Assembly: GCA_003223255.1 (NCBI GenBank)
Contig: QHYJ01000188.1
Location: forward strand, 1-46,020
From: Acidobacteriota bacterium
Lineage (GTDB): Bacteria; Acidobacteriota; Terriglobia; Acidiferrales; UBA7541
Direction: 5' to 3'
DNA: 46,020 nt
Made by a program: the position numbers and the translations under genes. Shown piece after piece: positions 17,847-46,020 of this stretch. The notes under the pieces are model-generated. The model did not search any database and had not been told where the DNA came from. It was given only the letters and a program-made list of their open reading frames with translations. Position 1 is the first letter of the stretch. The number at the start of each line of letters is the position of its first letter.

Positions 17847-17955
17847 CCTTGCGTGGGTTCCGTTAAACCGAGCCGAATTTTTCGCGCTTCACTTGTCTTG
17901 ACCTGAGTAAACAGCGCCGATAAGCTTGATGTTTCTCCTTTTGTGCCAAGGCGCC

Positions 17956-19911
17956 ATGGAGCAGATTCACATCACTTTGCCGGACGGCAGCGTCAAGGAT
18001 GTCCCCAAGGGCACCACCCCTGCGGACATCGCGCGGAGCATTTCGCCGCGCCTTGCGGACGCCGCGCTAGTGGCTCGCGTGGCCCAGCCTAATGACGGCG
18101 AGGGCGAACTGATTGATCTGCGCCGCCCGCTCGAAAGCGATGTGAAACTCCAGATCCTCACCGAGAAAGATCCGGACGCGCTCTTTGTGTTCCGCCATTC
18201 CGCGGCCCACCTGCTTGCCGCCGCGGTGATGGAGCTTTATCCGAACGTGAAGTTGGGTATCGGCCCGCCCATCGATACCGGCTTTTTTTATGAGTTTCTG
18301 CGCGACGAGCCTTTTACTCAGGAAGACCTCGCTAAAATTGAAAAAAAGATGCGCGAGCTGGCGGCGCAGGACTTGCCCAACGAGCGCAAACTCATTCCCA
18401 AGCCGGAAGCGCTCGAGCTGTACAAAAGGTCGAATCAGGTTTTCAAGTGCGAGCTGGTGGAAGAAAAAGCGGCCGAGCCGATGGTTTCTTTTTACACCAC
18501 CGGTAAGTTTATCGATTTTTGCCGGGGACCCCACATTCCCTCTACCAAGCGCATTCAGGCGTTCAAATTAATGAACGTTGCCGGCGCTTACTGGAAAGGC
18601 CGGGAAGGCAATCCGCAGCTCCAGCGCATTTATGCGGTGGCGTTTTTCACACAAAAAGAGCTGGACGAATACTTGCATCGCCTCGAAGAAGCCAAGCGCC
18701 GCGACCATCGCAAGCTCGGTGTTGAGCTGGATCTCTTCAGCATCGAGGAGGAAGCCGGTCCAGGCCTGATTTTCTGGCATCCTAAAGGTGGCCTCATTCG
18801 AAAAATCGTCGAGGACTGGCTGCGCGAGGAACTTCTCAAACGCGGCTACGATCTGGTCTATACGCCGCACATCATGCGCCGCGATCTGTGGAAGACCAGC
18901 GGCCACACCGGCTTTTACAAGGACAGCATGTTCGGGCCGATGGAAGTCGAAAAAGCCCACTACCAGCTCAAGCCCATGAACTGCCCGGGGCATATTCTGA
19001 TCTACAGGTCCAAGTTGCATAGCTACCGCGATCTTCCCGTGCGTCTCGCCGAACTTGGCACGGTTTACCGCTACGAACGCAGCGGTGTGCTCCACGGCTT
19101 GCTGCGTGTGCGCGGCTTTACGCAAGACGACGCGCACATCTTCTGCATGCCTTCGCAAATTGAGAGCGAGGTCGAGGCGTGCGTCGATTTTGCCTTCGCG
19201 GTGATGAAGAATTTCGGCTTCGACAAGTTTGAAGTTGAGCTCTCCGACTGGGACGCCGCGCATGCGGAAAATTACGCTGGCAAGGCGGAAGACTGGCATC
19301 GCGCGACCGCCGCGCTCGCCGCGACCATGAAGCGCATGAATATCCCGTACAAAACTATCGCGGGCGAGGCTGCGTTCTACGGCCCCAAGATTGACGTGAA
19401 GTTGATTGACGCCATCGGCCGTCCGTGGCAGCTCACCACGGTGCAATTCGATTTCAACTTGCCCGCGCGCTTCGGGCTTCAATATGTCGCCGAAGACGGC
19501 GCCAAACATCAGCCGCTCATGGTGCACCGCGCGCTGCTTGGTTCGGTTGAGCGTTTCTTCGGTATCCTCATCGAGCATTACGCCGGAGCATTTCCGCTCT
19601 GGCTCGCGCCTGTGCAGGTGGGAATCTGCCCGGTCAGCGAAAAAGTCGCGGATTACGCGAAGCACGTTCTGGAGATGCTTAAGGGGCACGGTCTGCGCGT
19701 GCATTTGGACGATCGCAACGAAAAGCTGCCCGCAAAAATCCGCGACGCGCAGCTGCAAAAAATTCCTTACATGCTGGTGGTCGGCGCCAAAGAAGCCGAA
19801 GCCGGAACTGTTTCCGTCCGGCAGCGCTCCAAAGGCGATCTCGGGCCCAAACCGCTCGCCGAAGTCGTCGCCACTCTTCAGCGCGAAGTCGAAACTCGGG
19901 CGATAAGCTGA
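17956..19911 (+). CDS. thrS: threonyl-tRNA synthetase
   Basis: A 651-residue class II synthetase that charges tRNA-Thr. Domains in order: TGS (about 1-62), the second additional domain used in editing (HSAAHLLAAAVMELYP near 80), the catalytic core with zinc ligand Cys343 in MNCPGH and motif 2 RYERSGVLHGLLRVRGFTQDDAHIF, then the HGTP anticodon-binding domain (DDRNEKLPAKIRDAQ). I chose ATG 17956 (MEQIHITLPDG), where the TGS domain begins; ATG 17929 and TTG 17926 are in-frame alternatives. It heads the thrS-infC-rpmI-rplT-pheST block. Confidence 0.97.
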   Translation: MEQIHITLPDGSVKDVPKGTTPADIARSISPRLADAALVARVAQPNDGEGELIDLRRPLESDVKLQILTEKDPDALFVFRHSAAHLLAAAVMELYPNVKLGIGPPIDTGFFYEFLRDEPFTQEDLAKIEKKMRELAAQDLPNERKLIPKPEALELYKRSNQVFKCELVEEKAAEPMVSFYTTGKFIDFCRGPHIPSTKRIQAFKLMNVAGAYWKGREGNPQLQRIYAVAFFTQKELDEYLHRLEEAKRRDHRKLGVELDLFSIEEEAGPGLIFWHPKGGLIRKIVEDWLREELLKRGYDLVYTPHIMRRDLWKTSGHTGFYKDSMFGPMEVEKAHYQLKPMNCPGHILIYRSKLHSYRDLPVRLAELGTVYRYERSGVLHGLLRVRGFTQDDAHIFCMPSQIESEVEACVDFAFAVMKNFGFDKFEVELSDWDAAHAENYAGKAEDWHRATAALAATMKRMNIPYKTIAGEAAFYGPKIDVKLIDAIGRPWQLTTVQFDFNLPARFGLQYVAEDGAKHQPLMVHRALLGSVERFFGILIEHYAGAFPLWLAPVQVGICPVSEKVADYAKHVLEMLKGHGLRVHLDDRNEKLPAKIRDAQLQKIPYMLVVGAKEAEAGTVSVRQRSKGDLGPKPLAEVVATLQREVETRAIS

Positions 19912-24164: not shown

Positions 24165-25298
24165 ATGCCGACCGATGACCTAGGTCTCGACAAAACGTTC
24201 GCCGCTCTCGGCGTGATTGAGGCGGCGCAAGTGGCTGCGCGCTTTGAGCAAGTGTTTGCGCATTTCGACGCCCAGCTCAAAACCGTTCACGAAGAATCCA
24301 CATGGAAGCAGTTTCGCGACGCATGGCTTGGCCGTAAGTCCGGTGTGCTTACACAAGTCACTGACAACTGGCTCAAGCCGGCTACTCCAGAATTGAAGCG
24401 CGTGGTTGGCCAAAAACTCAATGAGTTGCGGGCTTACGTTGAATTGCACATTGAAGCCCGTCGCGCTTCCATCGAATCCGGCACGGAACAAGCCGCGCTC
24501 GCGCGCGAGCGCGTGGACCTCTCTCTCCCCGGCGTCATCCATCCGATTGGCTCGCGCCATCTCATTCGCCAGGTCTTCCAAGAAGCCGAGGACATCTTTT
24601 TTTCTATTGGCTTCTCGATTGTTGAAGGCCCCGAAATCGAAACGCCTTATTACAACTTCGAGGCGCTGAACATTCCCGAATTCCATCCGGTGCGCGACGA
24701 CATGGACACGTTCTACATTGACTTGCCCAAGGGCGCGCCGACTCCGTTGCTGCTGCGCACGCACACTTCTCCTATGCAGATTCGAACCATGGAAAAGCAA
24801 GAGCCGCCCGTGCGCGTCATCGTTCCCGGGAAGGTCTATCGCCGCGACAATCCCGACGCCACGCATTCCTTCATGTTCCACCAAGTCGAAGGCCTTGCCG
24901 TGGACACGGACATCACCTTCTGCGATTTCACCGGCACTATCGAATATTTCGTGAAGCAGTTCTTTGGCCCCGGCGTGAAGACGCGGTTTCGGCCGAGCTA
25001 TTTCCCGTTCACCGAGCCATCCGTGGAATTCGACGTCTCCTGCATTTTTTGCGGCGGGAGCGGCGCTGCCGCGAGTGGCGGCGTCTGCTCCAAATGCAAA
25101 GGCGCGGGCTGGATCGAGCTCTTCGGCGCGGGCATGGTCGATCCCGCCGTCTACGGCTTCGTCAACTATGACGCCAAGAAAGTCAGCGGTTTCGCTTTCG
25201 GCATGGGCATCGACCGCCTCGCCATGCTGAAGTACGGCATCGACGACCTCCAGGTCTTTTTCCAAAACGATGTGCGCTTCCTGAAGCAGTTCCCATGA
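24165..25298 (+). CDS. pheS: phenylalanyl-tRNA synthetase alpha subunit
   Basis: A 377-residue class II catalytic subunit. An N-terminal coiled-coil (about 20-110) precedes the catalytic domain: HPIGSRHLIRQVFQEAEDIFFSIGF, GPEIETPYYNFEALNIPEFHPVRD, motif 2 PGKVYRRDNPDATHSFMFHQVEGL, and motif 3 SGFAFGMGIDRLAMLKYGIDDLQVFF. A CxxC pair (Cys293/Cys296 and Cys308/Cys311) forms a small zinc-ribbon-like insert before GAGMV, as in a subset of bacterial PheS. PheT, its obligatory partner, is 945 bp downstream, separated by a methyltransferase gene. Confidence 0.96.
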   Translation: MPTDDLGLDKTFAALGVIEAAQVAARFEQVFAHFDAQLKTVHEESTWKQFRDAWLGRKSGVLTQVTDNWLKPATPELKRVVGQKLNELRAYVELHIEARRASIESGTEQAALARERVDLSLPGVIHPIGSRHLIRQVFQEAEDIFFSIGFSIVEGPEIETPYYNFEALNIPEFHPVRDDMDTFYIDLPKGAPTPLLLRTHTSPMQIRTMEKQEPPVRVIVPGKVYRRDNPDATHSFMFHQVEGLAVDTDITFCDFTGTIEYFVKQFFGPGVKTRFRPSYFPFTEPSVEFDVSCIFCGGSGAAASGGVCSKCKGAGWIELFGAGMVDPAVYGFVNYDAKKVSGFAFGMGIDRLAMLKYGIDDLQVFFQNDVRFLKQFP

Positions 25299-26243: not shown

Positions 26244-28400
26244 ATGAAAGTTGTCTATAACTGGCTCAAGGACTTCGTCGGCGTCACCGCGCCGCCCCAG
26301 GAGCTTGCCTCGCGCCTCGCGCTTTCCGGCACAAACATCGCGGGCGTCGAGAACGGCGCGCACGGCGCGGTGCTTGACGCCGAAGTCGGTTCCAATCGCC
26401 CCGACTGCCTCGGTCATTACGGGATCGCGCGGGAAGTGGGCGCCATTTACAAGCTGCCGCTGAAGCACGTCTCACCAAAGCCACCGGAGAGCGCCGCCAA
26501 GGCCAGTGATGCCATCAAGGTCGAAATTCAGGCTCCAGAGCTTTGCGGCCGCTTTACCGCGCGCGTGGTTCGCGACGTCAAAATTGAGCCCTCCCCGAAA
26601 TGGCTGAAGGACCGCCTCGAAGCTTCCGGGGTGGCCAGCATCAGTAATGTTGTGGACATTTCCAACTACGTCATGCTCGAGCTGGGCCACGCGATCCACG
26701 CTTTCGATTACGACAAAGTGCGCGATCATAAGATTGTTGTCCGCCAGTCGAAACCCAAGGAACAAATCCGCACTCTCGACGGTGTTGAGCGCCAGCTCGA
26801 TCCAGGCATTTGTATGATTTGCGATGGTGACGGCTCGCGCGCCATCGGCATCGGCGGAATTATGGGCGGCGCGGAAACAGAAATCTCCTTCTCGACAAAA
26901 AACGTTTTGATCGAGTGCGCCTGGTTCGAACCTGTGCCCATTCGGCGCGCGGCCCGCTTTCTGAAATTGCACACGGAGGCTTCCACGCGCTTCGGCCGCG
27001 GCGCCGACCTGGAAATGGCCGAGCTGGCTTCGCGGCGTTGCGCGGAGCTGATTCTCGAGCTTGCCGGCGGAGAATTGCTTGCCGGCGTCGCAGATGTCTA
27101 CCCCGGCAAGCGCGCGCCAAAGAAGATCCAGCTCACTCGCAAAGAACTGCTTCGCGTCATGGGGGCGGACGTTCCCGACAAGCAAATCGAAGCCAGCCTT
27201 ACCGCCCTGGGCTTCGCCTCCGTTCGCATCGACCACAATCGTGGCGCGGAAGGCTCGCTGCTCGCCACGTGGGAGTGCACGCAGCCTTCCTGGCGCGGCG
27301 AAGTCGAGCGCGAAATCGACTTGATCGAGGAGGTCGCGCGCATTTACGGCCTCGACAAATTTCCTCCCCGCCTGCCCGCCGCACGCCAGGGGGCGGCGCG
27401 CCTGCCGCATCACGAAGCAGAAACGCGTTTGCGCGAACGCCTCGTCGGCTTGGGCTACCGCGAAATCGTCACCACTCCGCACGTTGCGGAGGAGCGCGAC
27501 GCGCTGTTTCGTCCCGCGGGAGTTTCGCCTGCTCGCCTCGCGAATCCGCTTTCCGAAGAAGCTGGTGTGCTGAAGTCCACCGGAATTGTCACCATGGCTG
27601 CCGCTCTGGAATGGAACCTCAACCACGGCCAGCGCAACGCGCGCCTGTTCGAAATCGGCCGGCATTATCGGCTCGAAGGAAATCAGTCTATCGAAACAAG
27701 CGTGCTTACTATCGGCGGGACCGGCGAAGCCCGCGAAAAGGGCCTTTACGACTCCGGGCGTGAATTTTCCTTCGCCGACCTTAAAGGCGATCTTGATGCT
27801 GTCGGTGAACTTGCTGGTGGTCTTTGCTGGAGCGCTGACTCGAGCAGAGATGGAGCCCATGCCGCCCCGACCTGGCTCCATGCCGCGCGCCGCGCCCAAG
27901 TTTCTCTTGACCTCGCCCCAACCGGAGGGCAGGACTCCTTTTTTGATAGGCAAGGAGGTGCAGCCTTCCTTGGCGAAGCTGGCGAACTCGCGCGGCGTGT
28001 CGCTGACCGGCTCAAGCTTCGCCAAGCGATCTTTCTCGCCGAGTTGGGACTGGACCCGCTATATGCCGCGATCGAGGCCCTGAAAAACTCCCGCCGCTAT
28101 CAGCCGCTTCCGCGCTTCCCGGCCGTGGAGCGCGATTTCTCGTTGCTGCTCGCCGACGGAATCACGTTCGCGCAGATTTCCGAATCGATTCGCTCGCTCG
28201 GCATCCCAGAAATCGGTGCCATCGAAGCCGTCGACCTTTTCCGTGGGAAGAATGTTCCGGCAGGAAAATACTCCCTGCTCATTCGGGTAACCTTCCAGAG
28301 CCGCGAAGCCACGCTGATGGACGCGCAGGTCAATCACTTCGCTGGAAAGATCATTTCCATCCTGGAGCACCGCCATGGAGCCCAGCTCCGCGCCAGCTGA
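26244..28400 (+). CDS. pheT: phenylalanyl-tRNA synthetase beta subunit (short form)
   Basis: A 718-residue subunit that completes the alpha2-beta2 enzyme. After the N-terminal MKVVYNWLKDFVGV it goes straight to VLDAEVGSNRPDCLGHYGIAREVGAIY, so the EMAP/tRNA-binding OB domain found at about 40-150 in E. coli is absent. The B3/B4 editing domain (SISNVVDISNYVMLELGHAIHAFDYDK, IGIGGIMGG), B5 domain (IQLTRKELLRVMGADV), catalytic-like core and C-terminal FDX-ACB anticodon domain (LPRFPAVERDFSLLL) are intact. Editing of misactivated tyrosine is expected. Confidence 0.95.
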   Translation: MKVVYNWLKDFVGVTAPPQELASRLALSGTNIAGVENGAHGAVLDAEVGSNRPDCLGHYGIAREVGAIYKLPLKHVSPKPPESAAKASDAIKVEIQAPELCGRFTARVVRDVKIEPSPKWLKDRLEASGVASISNVVDISNYVMLELGHAIHAFDYDKVRDHKIVVRQSKPKEQIRTLDGVERQLDPGICMICDGDGSRAIGIGGIMGGAETEISFSTKNVLIECAWFEPVPIRRAARFLKLHTEASTRFGRGADLEMAELASRRCAELILELAGGELLAGVADVYPGKRAPKKIQLTRKELLRVMGADVPDKQIEASLTALGFASVRIDHNRGAEGSLLATWECTQPSWRGEVEREIDLIEEVARIYGLDKFPPRLPAARQGAARLPHHEAETRLRERLVGLGYREIVTTPHVAEERDALFRPAGVSPARLANPLSEEAGVLKSTGIVTMAAALEWNLNHGQRNARLFEIGRHYRLEGNQSIETSVLTIGGTGEAREKGLYDSGREFSFADLKGDLDAVGELAGGLCWSADSSRDGAHAAPTWLHAARRAQVSLDLAPTGGQDSFFDRQGGAAFLGEAGELARRVADRLKLRQAIFLAELGLDPLYAAIEALKNSRRYQPLPRFPAVERDFSLLLADGITFAQISESIRSLGIPEIGAIEAVDLFRGKNVPAGKYSLLIRVTFQSREATLMDAQVNHFAGKIISILEHRHGAQLRAS

Positions 28401-38950: not shown

Positions 38951-39781
38951 CTAAGTGCCCAGGAGGTTGGGCTGCAGCCGCAAATAGCCTTGTTCAGTTG
39001 CCCAAAGTGTGTGCGGAATGGCGGCAAGATCGTCGACGAGCGGAATGGCGTTCCCATCCTTCGTAAGATCGATCGTCCGCAGGTAAAACTTGCAGGTGTC
39101 GCAAGCCTCCACCCGCACGTGCGGAGAATCCTCGGCGATATAGACCGGCAATTTGTCTTCGGTTTCTTCGCCACAGGACGGGCAAAGGATGCGCCGGAAC
39201 TCCCACTCTTGCAGGCAGAACGAACACTGCAGGAAACGCTTGCCGCCGTCGCCCTCAGGCCGCAGCACGCCGAGAAGTGGTCGCGATCCGCACAGCGGAC
39301 ACAGCCTCGGGGTTGTCACCTGCGGCGCGCGCGGCAGCGATCCGGCGCGAAACTCCACGTACGGTTGCAGGAACGCTCTGGGAAGGAATTGCGCGAACGC
39401 GCCAACCTGCTGCTCGTAAATCCCCGCATGCTGCCAGTAGGCCTCTAGGCTCGCAATCCAGGAATCGGAGCCCAGCAGCGCCATTTGCCGCGCCGACTCG
39501 GCAAGGGCAGGAGGAGCGTGATTCTCGATGACGGAGAGATAGCCGCGAAAGTGAGGAAGAACCACTGCGAAGTCGATGTCTGCGCGCAGTTCGCTTGACA
39601 CGTCGCTGCTCGGCTTCACCTGATGCGCCGCGGCGATATTGGCATGAAGAAGCTTCTGAAACGAGACAACATGTACGTAAAACTGGAGAAACTCCGTGGC
39701 CGAAGAATGCGGCGAACTCAAGCTCTCGGCACGTCGGATCCGCGCGCCGTATTCGGCTGCGCCGGTTTTTTCCGGCATCAC
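38951..39781 (-). CDS. fdhE: formate dehydrogenase accessory protein FdhE
   Basis: A 276-residue cytosolic protein needed for maturation of membrane formate dehydrogenase; E. coli FdhE has iron bound by CxxC motifs. Here the C-terminal half has LCPLCGSRP, CSFCLQEWEFRRILCPSCG and ACDTCKFYLRTID, four CxxC pairs in all as in the family, after a helical N-terminal half. It overlaps the cytochrome b gene by 4 bp (39778-39781) and closes the operon fdhA-fdhB-fdhC-fdhE. Confidence 0.92.
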   Translation of the reverse strand: MMPEKTGAAEYGARIRRAESLSSPHSSATEFLQFYVHVVSFQKLLHANIAAAHQVKPSSDVSSELRADIDFAVVLPHFRGYLSVIENHAPPALAESARQMALLGSDSWIASLEAYWQHAGIYEQQVGAFAQFLPRAFLQPYVEFRAGSLPRAPQVTTPRLCPLCGSRPLLGVLRPEGDGGKRFLQCSFCLQEWEFRRILCPSCGEETEDKLPVYIAEDSPHVRVEACDTCKFYLRTIDLTKDGNAIPLVDDLAAIPHTLWATEQGYLRLQPNLLGT

Positions 39782-40440
39782 TTGCGCGGCGAGGAAGACT
39801 CGCCCACGATCTCTTTATACCAAGTCGGGTGGTAGCGCTTGGCGAAGGCGATCGAAACGTCGCCGCGGATGACAGAGCCAAAGGCGCCGCGCTCTGCAAA
39901 AATTCCCATGTACAGATGAATCATGAAGAGGCCGATCGTGAACAGCGCTGCTGACGCATGGACAAGTACGGCGATGCGCATGGCAAGGAGAGAATGCCAC
40001 GCAAAGTACTGCGGAGCCCACAGGAAGACGCCGCTCAGGAGTAACAGCAGGCTACACCAGAAAAATCCCCAAAAGAGGAATTTCTGTCCCGCGTTGTATC
40101 GTCCTGCGGGCGGCATTTTTTCATCTTGATTCGTGCTGTAGTATTTCAGGGCTTTCCACCACCTACGGTCGTCGTCGGTGTGCTTCATCTGTGGCGCCCA
40201 CATCACGTACATGTACCACACGGCCCCGACAAAAATGAGTCCGGCCCAGGAGTGCAGCGTCCTCGATACCTGCGCGCCTCCGAGAGCTGCTGCCAGCCAG
40301 AAGAGCCAGGGCGACCAGAACGCGAGTCCGGTACCCAGCAAATACACGTACGACACGCCGGCAATCCAATGGACGAGCCGCTCGCGCAGGGTGTAGCGGA
40401 GGACGTGCCCGTGAGGGATGATTTGTTGAGGATGGCTCAC
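39778..40440 (-). CDS. fdhC: formate dehydrogenase cytochrome b subunit
   Basis: A 220-residue integral membrane protein that takes electrons from the FeS subunit through two haems b to quinone. Four transmembrane helices with the family's haem histidines: RERLVHWIAGVSYVYLLGTGLAF, TLHSWAGLIFVGAVWYMYVMW, FFWCSLLLLLSGVFLW, and AVLVHASAALFTIGLFMIHLYMGIF. The best start is GTG 40440 in a GTGA overlap with the fdhB stop and preceded by GGAGGAAG; an upstream ORF extension to 40578 would run through fdhB. Confidence 0.92.
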   Translation of the reverse strand: MSHPQQIIPHGHVLRYTLRERLVHWIAGVSYVYLLGTGLAFWSPWLFWLAAALGGAQVSRTLHSWAGLIFVGAVWYMYVMWAPQMKHTDDDRRWWKALKYYSTNQDEKMPPAGRYNAGQKFLFWGFFWCSLLLLLSGVFLWAPQYFAWHSLLAMRIAVLVHASAALFTIGLFMIHLYMGIFAERGAFGSVIRGDVSIAFAKRYHPTWYKEIVGESSSPRK

Positions 40441-41336
40441 GTTCTTCCTCCTCCCGGCTTGATGGCCAAGTCTTCTTCTTCGCGTGCCTTCGGCCCATAA
40501 CGCAAATAGTGCACGAACAATCCGACCAATCCACCGATCATGGCCACGTTGCCGAGCCATTTCAGCGGACCTTTCCACAGTTTCACGCTCCAGGGAACGT
40601 GCGGATTTTTCGGCAGACCGCCGTAAATCTCAGGATTGGAAGCGTCATGCAAAACGTAAATCACGCCCGTGCCGCCCACTCCAGGAGGATCGTAAACCCC
40701 CGCATTCGGGAAATTCGAATGGTCACGGAGTTGCTTCGCGCGACTTTCCGCTAATTCCTTCATGTCGTCCTTGGTGCCAAAGTGCAGGCAGCCGGTCGGA
40801 CACGACTTGATGCAGGCTGGCTCGAGTCCTTCGCTCACGCGGTCGGTGCACAGGGTGCACTTGAACACGCGGTGCGTCTTCGGATTCATCTTCGGAATAT
40901 CGAACGGGCAGCCGGTGATGCAGTAGCCGCAGCCAATGCAATTGGCTTGCTGGAAATCGACAATGCCGTTGGTGTACTGCACGATGGCGCCATCGGCGGG
41001 ACACGCGGCCAGGCAGCCCGGCTCCGCGCAGTGCATGCACTGGTTCTTGCGCATCAGCCACAGCAGCGAGCCATCTTCGCGCTCGTGCTCGTTGAAGAGG
41101 ATCAGGTTCCAGTAATTCCAGCGTGTCTCCGGCATGGTCTGGTACGTGTTGTCGAAAACGGTTTCGCTGAAAGGCAGGTCGTTCCATTCCACACAGGCCA
41201 CCTCGCAGGCCTTGCAGCCGATACAAGTGGTGGTGTCAATGAATTTGCAAACGGTATATTCACGCTGGGTGTCTTGCCCCGGTATGCTTCCGGCATGTCC
41301 TGAGATCTTTTGAACGCGTAGTGTGGCTTGGCTCAT
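40437..41336 (-). CDS. fdhB: formate dehydrogenase iron-sulfur subunit
   Basis: A 299-residue electron-transfer subunit. Four cysteine clusters for [4Fe-4S] are visible: CIGCKACEVAC, CMHCAEPGCLAACP, CIGCGYCITGCP and CTLCTDRVSEGLEPACIKSCP. A C-terminal transmembrane helix (WLGNVAMIGGLVGLFVHYL, about 262-280) anchors it as in FdnH/FdoH. It overlaps the fdhA stop by 4 bp and the cytochrome gene start by 4 bp, so the operon is tightly coupled. Confidence 0.95.
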   Translation of the reverse strand: MSQATLRVQKISGHAGSIPGQDTQREYTVCKFIDTTTCIGCKACEVACVEWNDLPFSETVFDNTYQTMPETRWNYWNLILFNEHEREDGSLLWLMRKNQCMHCAEPGCLAACPADGAIVQYTNGIVDFQQANCIGCGYCITGCPFDIPKMNPKTHRVFKCTLCTDRVSEGLEPACIKSCPTGCLHFGTKDDMKELAESRAKQLRDHSNFPNAGVYDPPGVGGTGVIYVLHDASNPEIYGGLPKNPHVPWSVKLWKGPLKWLGNVAMIGGLVGLFVHYLRYGPKAREEEDLAIKPGGGRT

Positions 41337-44300
41337 GGCTCAGCTCCTACGCTTTTCTCGACTTTCACGAGGAAGCCTTTGAACTCCGGCGTCCACGCGT
41401 TCGGGTCGATAACGGTCGGCGACAGCAGATTTGCCATGGTCTTTGCGGTCTTACCTTCGTCTTCGGTAATTCCGCGATAGCCCCAGTGGAAGGGAACGCC
41501 GATCTGGTAGGTCTTTTTTCCGTCGATCATCATCGACTTGATGCGTCTGGTGACCATGGCTTTCGCGACATAGTCGCCCCTCGCACTGGTCACTTTGACC
41601 TTTTCGCCGCCGCGCAGGCCCATTTCGTTTGCAAGCTCCGCAGGAATCTCCACGAACGGTTCCGGGACGAGCTGCACGTTCATCGGATTGTTCTTGGTCC
41701 AATAGTGGTAATGCTCAGTCAAGCGATAAGTAGTGCAGACGATGTTGTAATCCTTGGGCGTGCCATACTTGTCAGCATCGGTCTTGAATTTTTTCACGAT
41801 GGGATTGTTGGACTGCTGCGGGTGCAGTGGATTCTCGACCGGACTCTCGATCGGCTCGTAATGTTCCGGGAACGGGCCGTCGGCTACCGTCCCAATGGGC
41901 ACGAACAAACGTCCCACGCCCTCCGGATTCATGATGAACGGCCCCATGTGGTCTTTGGGCTTCGAGTCCGCCTTGAAGTCGGGTACATCGTTGCCGACCC
42001 ATTTCTGTGTCGCTTCGTTCCACCAAACCTGCTTCCGCGCAGGATCCCAGGGCTTTCCGTCGAGGTCGCACGACGCGCGGTTGTACAGCACACGGCGGTT
42101 AGCCGGCCAGGAAAACGCCCAATTTGGATAGATGCCGAGGCCGGAGGGATCTTCCGTGCCACGGCGGGCCATCATGTTGCCGGCTTCGGTGAAGGAGCCT
42201 GAATACAGCCAGTTCCCGCAGGCCGTGGTGCCGTCATCTTTCAGCCAGGCATAACCGGGAAGCTGCTGTCCCGCTTTGACCTGCTGCTTGGTAACAGGAT
42301 CTTCCAAGTCCGCCAGCGCTTTGCCGTTGATTTCCTTTGCCACTTCGGCGAGCGCGGGATTCTGCGGATTCGTGTAGCTCCAGGTGGCGTGCAGAATCGC
42401 GTCGGAGAACTTCCCGCCTTCCTTCTGGTACAGTTCACGAACTCTCAGGAAGATGCGCGCGAGGACTTCTTGATCCGGTTTTGCGTCTCCCGGAGGAGGC
42501 AGAGCGGCGTTCTTCCACTGCAGCCAGCGCGCGGAGTTGACGAACGCCCCGTCCTTTTCTGCGAATCCAGCGCAAGGCAGCCGGTACACCGTGGTCTGGA
42601 TTTTCTTCATTTCGTCTTGCGTAATTCCGGGAGACTTCCAGAATTCGCTCGTCTCGTCCGGGTAGATTTCTCCAACCACCAGCCAATCAGCTTTCTTCAA
42701 GGCTTCGATGTTTTTGTTCGAATCGGGACCGATGGCCACGCCGTTCATGCCAAAAGCGAACAGACCCTTGACGTTGCCGCGGTACATGTCATCCCAGATG
42801 TAGGTCCAGGAATAGTTGCGGTCGACCTTGGGCAAGTAATGGAAGGCCCAGTCGTTTTGTTTCGTGGCGGTGTCGCCGTACATGGCTTTCATAAAGCTGA
42901 CGGCGAATTTCGGTGTGTTGGACCAATAGTTCCACGAATCCCAGATATGCGGTTTTGACGATTTCGGAGTGATGCGCTCCAAATAAGTTTTGAAATCAGT
43001 GTCAGCAGGCACGGGAACTTTAAGATAGCCGGGCAGGATTTCGAAGATTCCCGCCATGTCGGTGGCGCCCTGAATATTCGAATGGCCACGCAGGGCGTTC
43101 ACGCCGCCTCCGGAGCGACCGACGTTGCCAAGCAAGAGTTGCAGCATCGCGGCGGTTCGAATGGTCTGGGTACCCGCCGTATGCTGCGTCCAGCCTACGG
43201 CGTAGATAATTGTGGCGACTTTCTTCATGTCGCCGTCTTTGCGCACGGAAGTGAAAAGGTCCGCGACTTTCTCAAACTGGGCTTTTGGAATTCCCGTGAT
43301 GCGCTCGACCATCTCCGGCGTATAACGCGAATATTGCTTGCGCAGCAGTTGAAAGACGCAGTTGGGATGTTGCAGAGTCAGGTCGTAGGCCACGTTCTCC
43401 GGGAGATGCGGTGGCGGCGTAGGTTTGCCGGCGGCCGCTGCTTTGTTTTCTTTAGGCGGTGGGTCCCCTTTGGCCCTTGCGGGTTTGCCGCTCAGGTCGC
43501 CGCCTTCCTGGTAGTTCCAAGAGGTATTATCGTAGGTTTGTGTCTCGGCATCGAAGCCGGAATAGAGCCCGTCCTCAGGCAGCTTGAATCCTTCCTTGAT
43601 GACAAATGCAGCGTTGGTGTAGTTGAGCAGGTAGTCTTTGGCGATGCGATGGTTTTCGATGGCGTAGTGAATGAGGCCGCCGAGGAACGCAATATCCGAA
43701 CCTGCGCGAATCTGGCAGAACAAGTCGGCAACCGAGGCCGTGCGCGTGAAACGCGGGTCTACCACGATCAGTTTGGCGTTGCGTGTGCGTTTTGCCTCGA
43801 CGGGCCACTTGAAGCCGCAGGGATGGTTCTCCGCAGGATTCCCACCCATGATCAACATCATGTCAGTGTTCTTGATGTCGATCCATCCATTGGTCATAGC
43901 GCCCCGGCCGAACGTTGGTCCCAAACTTGAGACCGTGGGGCCGTGTCAAACCCTGGCCTGGTTTTCTAAGTGCACCACCCCCAGGGAGCGCATGGTTTTG
44001 ACGACCAGGTAGTTGAACTCGTTGGTGTCGGTGCACCCGCCGCTCCAAGCAATGGATTCAAGGCGATTCACAGTGTGACCGGCAGCGTCCTTCTCAATAA
44101 ACGTGTCATCCCGCGTTTTTTTGACTTTCTGTGCGATCTCGCTGATGGCATCGTCCCAGGAAATATCTTCCCACTCGGTTCCGCCGGGGCGCCGTACCTG
44201 AGGCTTCAGCAGACGCCTTTCGTTGAGAATGTCCTGTTCGAGCGAGGCTCCCTTGGGGCAGAGCGTGCCGCGATTGATGGGGTGGTCCGGATCGCCCTCG

Positions 44301-44527
44301 ACGTGCACGACCTGCGGAGTAACATTCTTGGCGCGGTCGCCGATGGTGTAGATGATGACGCCACAACTCACCGAGCAATACGGACAGGTCGAGCGCGTCT
44401 CGTTGGCGCGCGCAATCTTTAGCGTGCGCAACTGCGCGTAAGCGGGCTTCAAATCAAAGCCAAACAGTGTAGCTGCAGCTCCGCCAATGGTCGTAAGCTT
44501 GAGAAAATCACGGCGGGTAGGGCTCAT
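41333..44527 (-). CDS. fdhA: formate dehydrogenase catalytic subunit, selenoprotein (UGA = Sec194)
   Basis: A 1064-residue molybdopterin enzyme that oxidises formate to CO2. It has a Tat signal (MSPTRRDFLKLTTIGGAAATLFG), a [4Fe-4S] motif CPYCSVSCG...LCPKG (about 57-100), the bis-MGD domains and a C-terminal dinucleotide-binding domain. An in-frame TGA at 43946-43948 lies in NQARV-U-HGPTVSSLGPTFGRGAMTN, exactly where FdnG and FdoG of E. coli have selenocysteine. A SECIS-like hairpin follows at once. Without this reading the gene splits into ORFs ending at 43946 and starting at 43924. ATG 44527 is chosen to fit the Tat signal. The host must have selABC, not seen here. Confidence 0.95.
43901..43941 (-). 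promoter_or_regulatory. bacterial SECIS-like hairpin for Sec194 of fdhA
   Basis: On the coding strand the apical stem GGTCTC/GGGACC (43929-43934 with 43917-43922) encloses the loop AAGTTT and starts 11 bases after the UGA. An outer GCCCC/GGGGC pair (43937-43941 with 43901-43905) can extend it. Position, stem and loop are close to those of the E. coli fdnG element, whose loop is AAGUCU. It should recruit SelB with Sec-tRNA. Confidence 0.8.
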
Positions 44528-44707
44528 CTCAGACCCCCATCCGCGAGGTGTGGAAGTAGGGTAGGGAAGACCCCGCGGAACCCTCTTCATAGAACACGGG
44601 CGTCTCAACTGTCAAGCATTCATTTTTTGTCGCGCAGGCGCAACTCTCAGGAGGAAGTTTGGCGATACTTGCGTCGTCTCAGAACCTGCAAGGATGCGTC
44701 GGCGGTC

Positions 44708-44769: not shown

Positions 44770-45495
44770 CTAGAAGAAGTCCGCCATGGGCACGCGTGAA
44801 GCGGCTCCGCCCAGGCCGGAGAAGTTCGTCAGTCCAAGCGCCTCACCGATGGTGCGCAGGATGCTGGCGTGATCGTAGGTATTGTTGTAGTTAGCGGGGT
44901 CGCCGCCCGTGGACTTGTAGGCCAGCCTGCCGACCGGACTGATCATCACGGTTTCGACTTGACCGCCGCAGCCTTGCCCAACCGTCGTGGTAGAGCAGTT
45001 GGGGCTGCCCGACTTGTCGTTCTCATCCCAAGTGATGATCAGCAAGCCATCGCCTCCCGGTTGAAAATAGCTGCTGGCCAGGAGCGGGCCGATTTCGGTC
45101 TTTAGCCAGTTGTCGAACGTGCCGACCGAGCAGTCGTGCGCGTCATCGCAGCCGTTCGGCGACAGCCAGGAAAGGTTCGGCAGCGCCTTGTTGGCCAGGT
45201 CCGTAGCGAATTGGCTGAAGCAAACAAAATTGGCCTTTTCGGTGTTGATGTTCGTAAAGTATTGCAGCGGGTCGTGGCGTACAATGTAGTTCCCGCTGTG
45301 CACGGCGCTGCAGCCCATACCCGTCTCCACGTAGTCTTTCCAGGTCTTGCCGGCCTTCTGCACCTCGAAGGCAATGTTGTCGCCGGAGAGGGGCATACTG
45401 GAGGGCGTGGCGCTGTCGTTGTTGGTAAAGATTTGTCCCGCCGTCATGACCTCATTCGGCCCAATACTTGGTGGACAGCCCGTACTGATTCGCAA
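44770..45495 (-). pseudogene. phosphoesterase family (acid-phosphatase-like), C-terminal fragment
   Basis: About 240 residues of a secreted phosphoesterase (PF04185-type). From PSIG onward it has PNEVMTAGQIFTNND, SGNYIVRHDPLQYFTNI, FDNWLKTEIGPLL, LLIITWDENDKSG (metal-binding D/N pattern) and TYDHASILRTIGEALGL with the conserved His. The N-terminal catalytic segment is in another frame (next entry). The formal start is TTG 45495, but homology begins only near 45475. The end MADFF with TAG at 44770 matches the usual C-terminus. Confidence 0.8.
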
Positions 45496-46020
45496 GCGAG
45501 GTCAAGTACGGCATATTGCTGCTGTTATAGGTGCTGCTATAGGCGCTGTTTTCTCCGATAACGATGAAGACGTGCCCGAACTTCGCCATCGTGCCCGCCG
45601 CGTTCACCGTAAGCGTGGCGGCATTGCTGGTTACGTTCCCCGCGACGTTGCTGACCACCACTCGGAACTGTGCGCCATTGTCCGCGGAGGTGGTCGCGGG
45701 CGTAGTGTAGCTGGCCGAAGTCGCTCCGCTGATGGCCGTGCTGTTCTTCTGCCATTGATAGCTCAACGGCGCGGCGCCGGCAGCCACTACTTTGAATGTG
45801 GCCGTCTGTCCCACCGTCACTGTTTGGTTGGCCGGCTGCGTAGTGATCGATGGCGCGACTGCTGCCGCATTCACGGTGAGCGTGGCTGCATTGCTGGTTA
45901 CGCTTCCCGCGGAGTCGCTGACCACTACGACGAACTTAGCGCCGTTATCCGAAGAAGTAGTCGCAGGGGTAGTGTAGCTGGCCGAAGTCGCTCCGCTGAT
46001 GGCCGTGCTGTTCTTCTGCC
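45452..46020 (-). pseudogene. phosphoesterase family, Ig-like repeats and N-terminal catalytic fragment (partial)
   Basis: Open from the right edge, so the 5' end is outside. It encodes parts of two tandem Ig-like domains (PSITTQPANQTVTVGQTATFKVVAAGAAPLSYQWQKN...; 89 residues per repeat) and then the start of the phosphoesterase, MAKFGHVFIVIGENSAYSSTY...SLANQYGLSTKYWA. It stops at TGA 45452; coding sense resumes in another frame with PSIGPNEVMTAGQI. A few residues (the usual NTHPSIG-like stretch) are lost at the junction. Probably a surface or secreted enzyme. Confidence 0.78.
45704..46020. repeat. 267-bp tandem repeat encoding Ig-like domains
   Basis: The stretch at 45704-45753 recurs at 45971-46020 without a difference that I can see, at a period of 267 bp (89 codons). 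The sequence in between also repeats with drift. Such near-identical repeats, one at the window edge, often break assemblies. Confidence 0.75.

Follow-up and report, generated by a model that had tools for sequence, protein, structure and literature searches.

Gene organisation at the locus

The window, i.e. the whole stretch of 46,020 nucleotides that was analysed (contig QHYJ01000188.1 of the Acidobacteriota assembly GCA_003223255.1), carries on its reverse strand an fdnG-like gene for a formate dehydrogenase-N alpha subunit (41333..44527 (-)). The frame runs from an ATG at 44527 to a terminal TGA at 41335-41333. It is interrupted by exactly one internal stop, a TGA at 43946..43948 (-) flanked by NQARV and HGPTVSS, as the first-pass annotation had described. 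Frame reading, alignments and conservation mark this TGA as the putative selenocysteine (Sec) codon for residue 194 of a product of 1,064 residues. Ordinary ORF calling returns the frame in two pieces (43946..44608 and 41333..43924), which had been anticipated as well. Against TIGR01553 the read-through product scored 1358.3 bits (cut-off 814.2), which places it in the formate dehydrogenase-N alpha subunit family.

The best solved relative of the product was chain A of PDB 1kqf, the major subunit of a nitrate-inducible formate dehydrogenase. Opposite the UGA, this chain has a residue that is printed as X (NQARVXHGPTV) and that we take to be selenocysteine, the chain itself presumably being from E. 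coli. As a control we used the annotated E. coli fdnG. Its in-frame TGA at residue 196, located between NQARV and HGPTVASLAPTFG, aligns with the UGA of the window, and 45 of 60 bases counted from the codon preceding the UGA are identical in the two genes. Both alignments support the earlier claim that the UGA occupies the Sec position of E. coli FdnG. In both, U194-HGP fits the motif U-H-x-P at the metal-ligand position, the motif being written as UHxP in the available part of PMC13188914. The likeness to E. coli FdnG (1kqf; TIGR01553) thus comprises the Sec position and this motif, and extends to a Tat signal and to FdnH-like and FdnI-like partners. A Pro/Ala-rich segment of the window's protein (residues 342-380) differs from E. 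coli FdnG and lies between two aligned stretches.

The twin-arginine export signal covers residues 4-22 (44462..44518 (-); TIGR01409, 23 bits, cut-off 16.7). Downstream of the fdnG-like gene and on the same strand follow genes for an fdnH-like iron-sulfur (beta) subunit (40437..41336 (-); TIGR01582, 372.6 bits, cut-off 334.7), an fdnI-like cytochrome b (gamma) subunit (39778..40578 (-); TIGR01583, 156.7 bits, cut-off 115.85) and an FdhE-like accessory protein (38951..39781 (-); TIGR01562, 76.5 bits, below the cut-off of 187.65). The export signal and the adjacent beta and gamma genes all score above their cut-offs. Since the TIGR01583 match spans residues 59-258, the true start of the fdnI-like gene is probably later than annotated.

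Pfam annotation of the window covered 10 of its 140 ORFs. Just upstream of fdnG lies a phosphoesterase-family frame (PF04185, 44770-45495 (-)). Near-identical repeats, Ig-like as judged by eye, are found in another frame within 44770-45925 (-) and run off the contig end. Between 17926 and 28400 (+) Pfam identified a threonyl-tRNA synthetase (17926-19911) as well as the alpha (24165-25298) and beta (26244-28400) subunits of phenylalanyl-tRNA synthetase.

Conservation of the UGA codon

The split of the gene by standard ORF calling is what one would see if the TGA were a true stop, be it in a pseudogene or due to a sequencing or assembly error, with a downstream frame that is dead or a separate gene. 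We consider this reading together with the conservation of the codon in 110 loci: 30 came from the host genome and 100 relatives (own locus included), and 80 were the best 80 of 215 relatives on named contigs. These named contigs belong mostly to Acidobacteria/Terriglobia MAGs, with the six best matches labelled gp2 and one labelled Betaproteobacteria. The codon was TGA in all 110 loci, and the protein was conserved on both sides of it.

After removal of 16 loci that share an identical 600-base stretch, 94 distinct loci remained. From their codon alignment we obtained the synonymous diversity relative to the expectation from codon usage for the same amino acids. Columns were used in which one residue made up at least 90%, Met and Trp being excluded, and were evaluated in overlapping 14-codon windows with at least 8 usable columns. 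For codons 189-202, around the TGA, the ratio was 0.31, the lowest of 531 such windows, compared to 0.84 for the entire gene. The next separate stretch of low diversity begins at codon 214 (0.39). Conservation of the TGA together with this low synonymous diversity makes a true stop very unlikely, its probability being close to negligible, and the SECIS match and the complete set of sel genes described below speak against it as well.

Codons 188-193 preceding the UGA (43949-43966 (-)) are also under strong synonymous constraint, with the exception of Arg192. The Val193 codon, for instance, ends in T in 93 of the 94 loci; the Rfam SECIS_3 model begins just 3 bases ahead of the UGA.

The predicted SECIS element

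An apical hairpin, GGTCTC-AAGTTT-GGGACC (43917..43934 (-)), follows the TGA after a spacer of 11 bases (43945-43935). Its 6-bp stem, its loop AAGTTT and its distance from the UGA are those given in the first-pass annotation. In the minimum-energy fold a seventh pair is added, such that the loop AGUU remains. With numbering from the U of the UGA, the hairpin holds U17, G23 and U24. In E. coli fdnG likewise 11 bases separate the UGA from the apical stem, whereas the sequence of the apical hairpin differs and U17 is predicted to be paired in the window.

The resemblance to a bacterial SECIS that had been noted before was recovered by a covariance model: Rfam RF01989 SECIS_3 matched over its full length (model positions 1-59, 43893..43951 (-)) with 60.3 bits and an E value of 1.2e-13, U17, G23 and U24 being present. 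The score is, however, slightly (2.7 bits) below the gathering score of 63. In the window, several of the model's pairs are flagged as non-standard, and the free fold uses another register of the apical stem. Compared to shuffled sequences, the fold energy of the 51-nt stretch was unremarkable (z -0.88; 38 of 200 shuffles folded at least equally well). As this value is not significant, fold energy was dropped as support for the SECIS. Both the missing 2.7 bits and a fold energy no better than that of shuffles were counted against the Sec reading.

In the available part of PMC13188914 the bacterial SECIS consensus comprises an apical loop of 3–9 nt with a G in the first two positions, an upper stem of 4–16 bp, a UGA-to-loop distance of 16–37 nt and a minimum free energy of -7.5 kcal/mol or lower. 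The window agrees with this description, having the loop AGUU (G second), 7 bp and 18 nt, and a 23-nt fragment that includes the apical hairpin folds with -10.0 kcal/mol, within the energy limit. For the E. coli type of SECIS, the accessible text of PMC8659212 describes an apical loop containing G23 and U24 and a bulged U17, with the bulge being needed for SelB binding; according to this review, read-through is lost when U17 or G23 is altered. While the window has all three bases, folding of the 44 bases following the UGA predicts a paired U17: in the 63 loci that share the window's form, its probability of being unpaired averages 0.004. This predicted pairing, set against the bulge that PMC8659212 places there in the text at hand, was also counted against the Sec reading. 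Together, the covariance-model match, the TGA in 110 of 110 loci and the synonymous constraint put the predicted SECIS beyond chance.

Decoding machinery and further selenoprotein candidates

The host genome (6.66 Mb in 428 contigs, 97.32% complete, contamination 2.1) contains a tRNA-Sec with anticodon TCA (64.9 bits, cut-off 47; contig C109), SelB (359.9 bits, cut-off 242.25; C361), SelA (566 bits, cut-off 267.9; C335) and SelD (350.1 bits, cut-off 125; C2). The first-pass annotation had expected selA, selB, selC and selD in the host and had named a lack of selB or tRNA-Sec in a complete genome as one outcome that would refute its reading; all four are present and exceed curated cut-offs. They lie on four contigs, none of which is that of the window (C130). 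A binning error for these genes is unlikely, since SelB and tRNA-Sec occur in most of the 101 genomes considered below.

The decoding genes also bear on the question whether the UGA is read as another amino acid, by Trp reassignment or near-cognate suppression, given that an open frame alone cannot separate Sec from other read-through. The presence of tRNA-Sec (TCA), SelA, SelB and SelD, the alignment of the residue with the Sec position of FdnG and the SECIS that follows argue for Sec instead, and UGA is not simply reassigned in this organism, because the fdnG frame itself terminates in TGA. We regard another amino acid at this position as highly improbable. A pseudogene, a sequencing error and UGA reassignment were all rejected, on the grounds of conservation, SECIS, sel genes and the frame ending in TGA.

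SelD (L021:1498-2562, C2) is likely a selenoprotein itself, as judged from its sequence: an in-frame TGA (L021 1531-1533, KAAGUAAKLSP) aligns with the Cys of GAGCGCKISP in PDB 3u0o, a selenide, water dikinase. Sec would be residue 12 if the GTG at 1498 is the start. This TGA was counted in favour of Sec decoding at fdnG. Downstream of this TGA we found no Rfam SECIS match up to E 5, and the fold energy of the stretch past it was not significant compared to shuffles (z -1.00). A second FdhA-type frame (L164:1934-3850, C191) has one in-frame TGA at 2201 (CNRTUHAPSV) and scored 645.5 bits against TIGR01591, below the cut-off of 666.25. As the match begins at profile position 51, this frame seemingly is without the usual N-terminal iron-sulfur domain. 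No Rfam SECIS was found at this locus up to E 1. The genome likely holds three selenoprotein genes, i.e. fdnG, selD and the second FdhA. The second FdhA frame is followed by a stretch that looks NuoE-like by eye.

Bacterial tRNA-Sec is described with an 8/5 fold in the available text of PMC5330540. Among 31 tRNA-Sec genes (those of the host and of the 30 best-scoring relatives, L134-L163, which do not form a random sample) the eighth acceptor-stem pair (8:66) is mismatched in 24; in the host (L001:1501-1599, C109) it is A-A.

Co-occurrence among relatives

Across the host genome and 100 relatives, 101 genomes in all, 88 have a SelB that exceeds its cut-off and 82 a tRNA-Sec, the latter under stricter filters; the host is among both counts. 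The patchy use of selenocysteine that the first-pass annotation had assumed was thus not seen in this neighbourhood. A TGA-bearing match at E <= 1e-60 was present in at least 48 genomes, own included (hand count among the matches listed). Of these 48, SelB was found in 46, tRNA-Sec in 42 and at least one of the two in all; the position of the TGA was verified in 30 genomes, with the other 18 resting on the stop count of the search rows. Eight genomes, six of them at least 95% complete, lack both SelB (E <= 1e-60) and tRNA-Sec. For six of the eight, fdnG-search matches are listed, none of which bears a TGA; G074 and G099, also without SelB and tRNA-Sec, have no row among the matches listed. This distribution, too, was counted as support for reading the UGA as Sec.

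Two coupled sequence forms of the hairpin

The apical hairpin occurs in two forms among the 94 distinct loci. The form of the window (A/A), GGTCTC-AAGTTT-GGGACC, is found in 62 loci, plus one with the loop AGGTCT. The second form (C/G), GGTCTC-CAGTTT-GGGGCC, is found in 26, and five further loci belong to it with GGGGGC (four) or GGGGTC (one). The third bases of Ser200 and Gly203 are coupled in all 94 loci: A goes along with A in 63, and C with G in 31. The normalised mutual information of this pair is 1.0, while the next best of 689 pairs (variable synonymous sites at most 6 codons apart whose second most frequent base occurs in 20 loci or more) reaches 0.38. The hairpin class is less closely tied to neighbouring sites (0.08 for Pro197, 0.12 for Thr205), an argument against transfer of the stretch as a whole, the value of 0.46 for Pro204 adjoining the hairpin notwithstanding. 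In a FastTree phylogeny built from the remainder of the gene, each coupled site requires 6 changes. In an independent-pairs test 4 of 4 supported pairs changed in the same direction, which alone is not significant (sign test, p 0.125). The stronger support for the coupling comes from the comparison with other site pairs.

In the folds of the 44 bases following the UGA, U17 is predicted to be unpaired more often in the C/G class (mean 0.72 over 31 loci, range 0.02–0.996). For the bare apical hairpin of this form the unpaired probability is only 0.27, and it drops to 0.0 for the variant with GGGGGC, present in 4 of the 31 C/G loci, where U17 pairs in yet another, third register. The corresponding value for E. 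coli fdnG is 1.0, U17 being folded as a bulge. The two intermediates with a single change fold with -9.4 and -8.4 kcal/mol, compared to -10.0 and -7.8 kcal/mol for the real forms. As the intermediates fold about equally well, their absence is not accounted for by stability as such; SelB recognition might be behind it. An exact-pattern scan of 396 genomes across the phylum found the window's form in 4 (own included) and the second form and both intermediates in 0 each. Since the second common form is absent there too, this sample is uninformative about intermediates.

These predicted folds tentatively suggest that the acidobacterial fdnG SECIS comes in two variants, with U17 able to bulge like that of E. 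coli fdnG in 31 of the 94 loci and the bulge closed by a U17-A pair in the other 63. Several switches between them would then have occurred in different lineages, each by joint synonymous changes in codons 200 and 203; none of the 94 loci shows an intermediate. We consider this rather doubtful, and take two forms with predicted U17-A pairing as a lead and not as a result. If true, SelB in these organisms has to work with a hairpin that lacks the bulged U said to be required in E. coli. The coupled hairpin sites provide a natural experiment on which SECIS features SelB needs.

Discussion

The frame, its codon, the SECIS match, the Tat signal, the neighbouring genes, the complete decoding set and the evolutionary constraint form the sequence basis for a conventional bacterial selenoprotein gene, in which UGA 194 is almost certainly decoded as Sec. 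During translation the ribosome would arrive at the UGA of codon 194, where SelB on the SECIS hairpin just downstream would deliver Sec-tRNA-Sec, made by SelA with selenophosphate supplied by SelD. After insertion of Sec, translation would continue to the TGA at 41335-41333, giving the catalytic subunit of an FdnGHI-type formate dehydrogenase. By analogy with known families, read-through should occur and Sec would ligate molybdenum or tungsten. On the same basis, the enzyme would be exported and membrane-anchored, oxidising formate and passing electrons to quinone.

The finding is a correct yet ordinary one, since gene, RNA signal and decoding machinery are all present as in many bacteria. Reports of acidobacterial selenoproteins date back to 2006: Table 2 of PMC1794560 (2006), in the part available, gives 3 families and 4 selenoproteins for Acidobacteria, and the accessible text of PMC12013277 (2025) gives 3 known selenoprotein genes for Occallatibacter riparius. 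In the available part of the review on odd tRNAs, PMC7609411, Acidobacteria are mentioned just for allo-tRNAs, a separate matter.

Gene callers that know UGA only as a stop cut the enzyme in two, and the number of such genomes counted as oxidising formate or depending on selenium may therefore be too low. As the decoding trait is common nearby (see the SelB counts above), formate oxidation may depend on selenium in many such bacteria.
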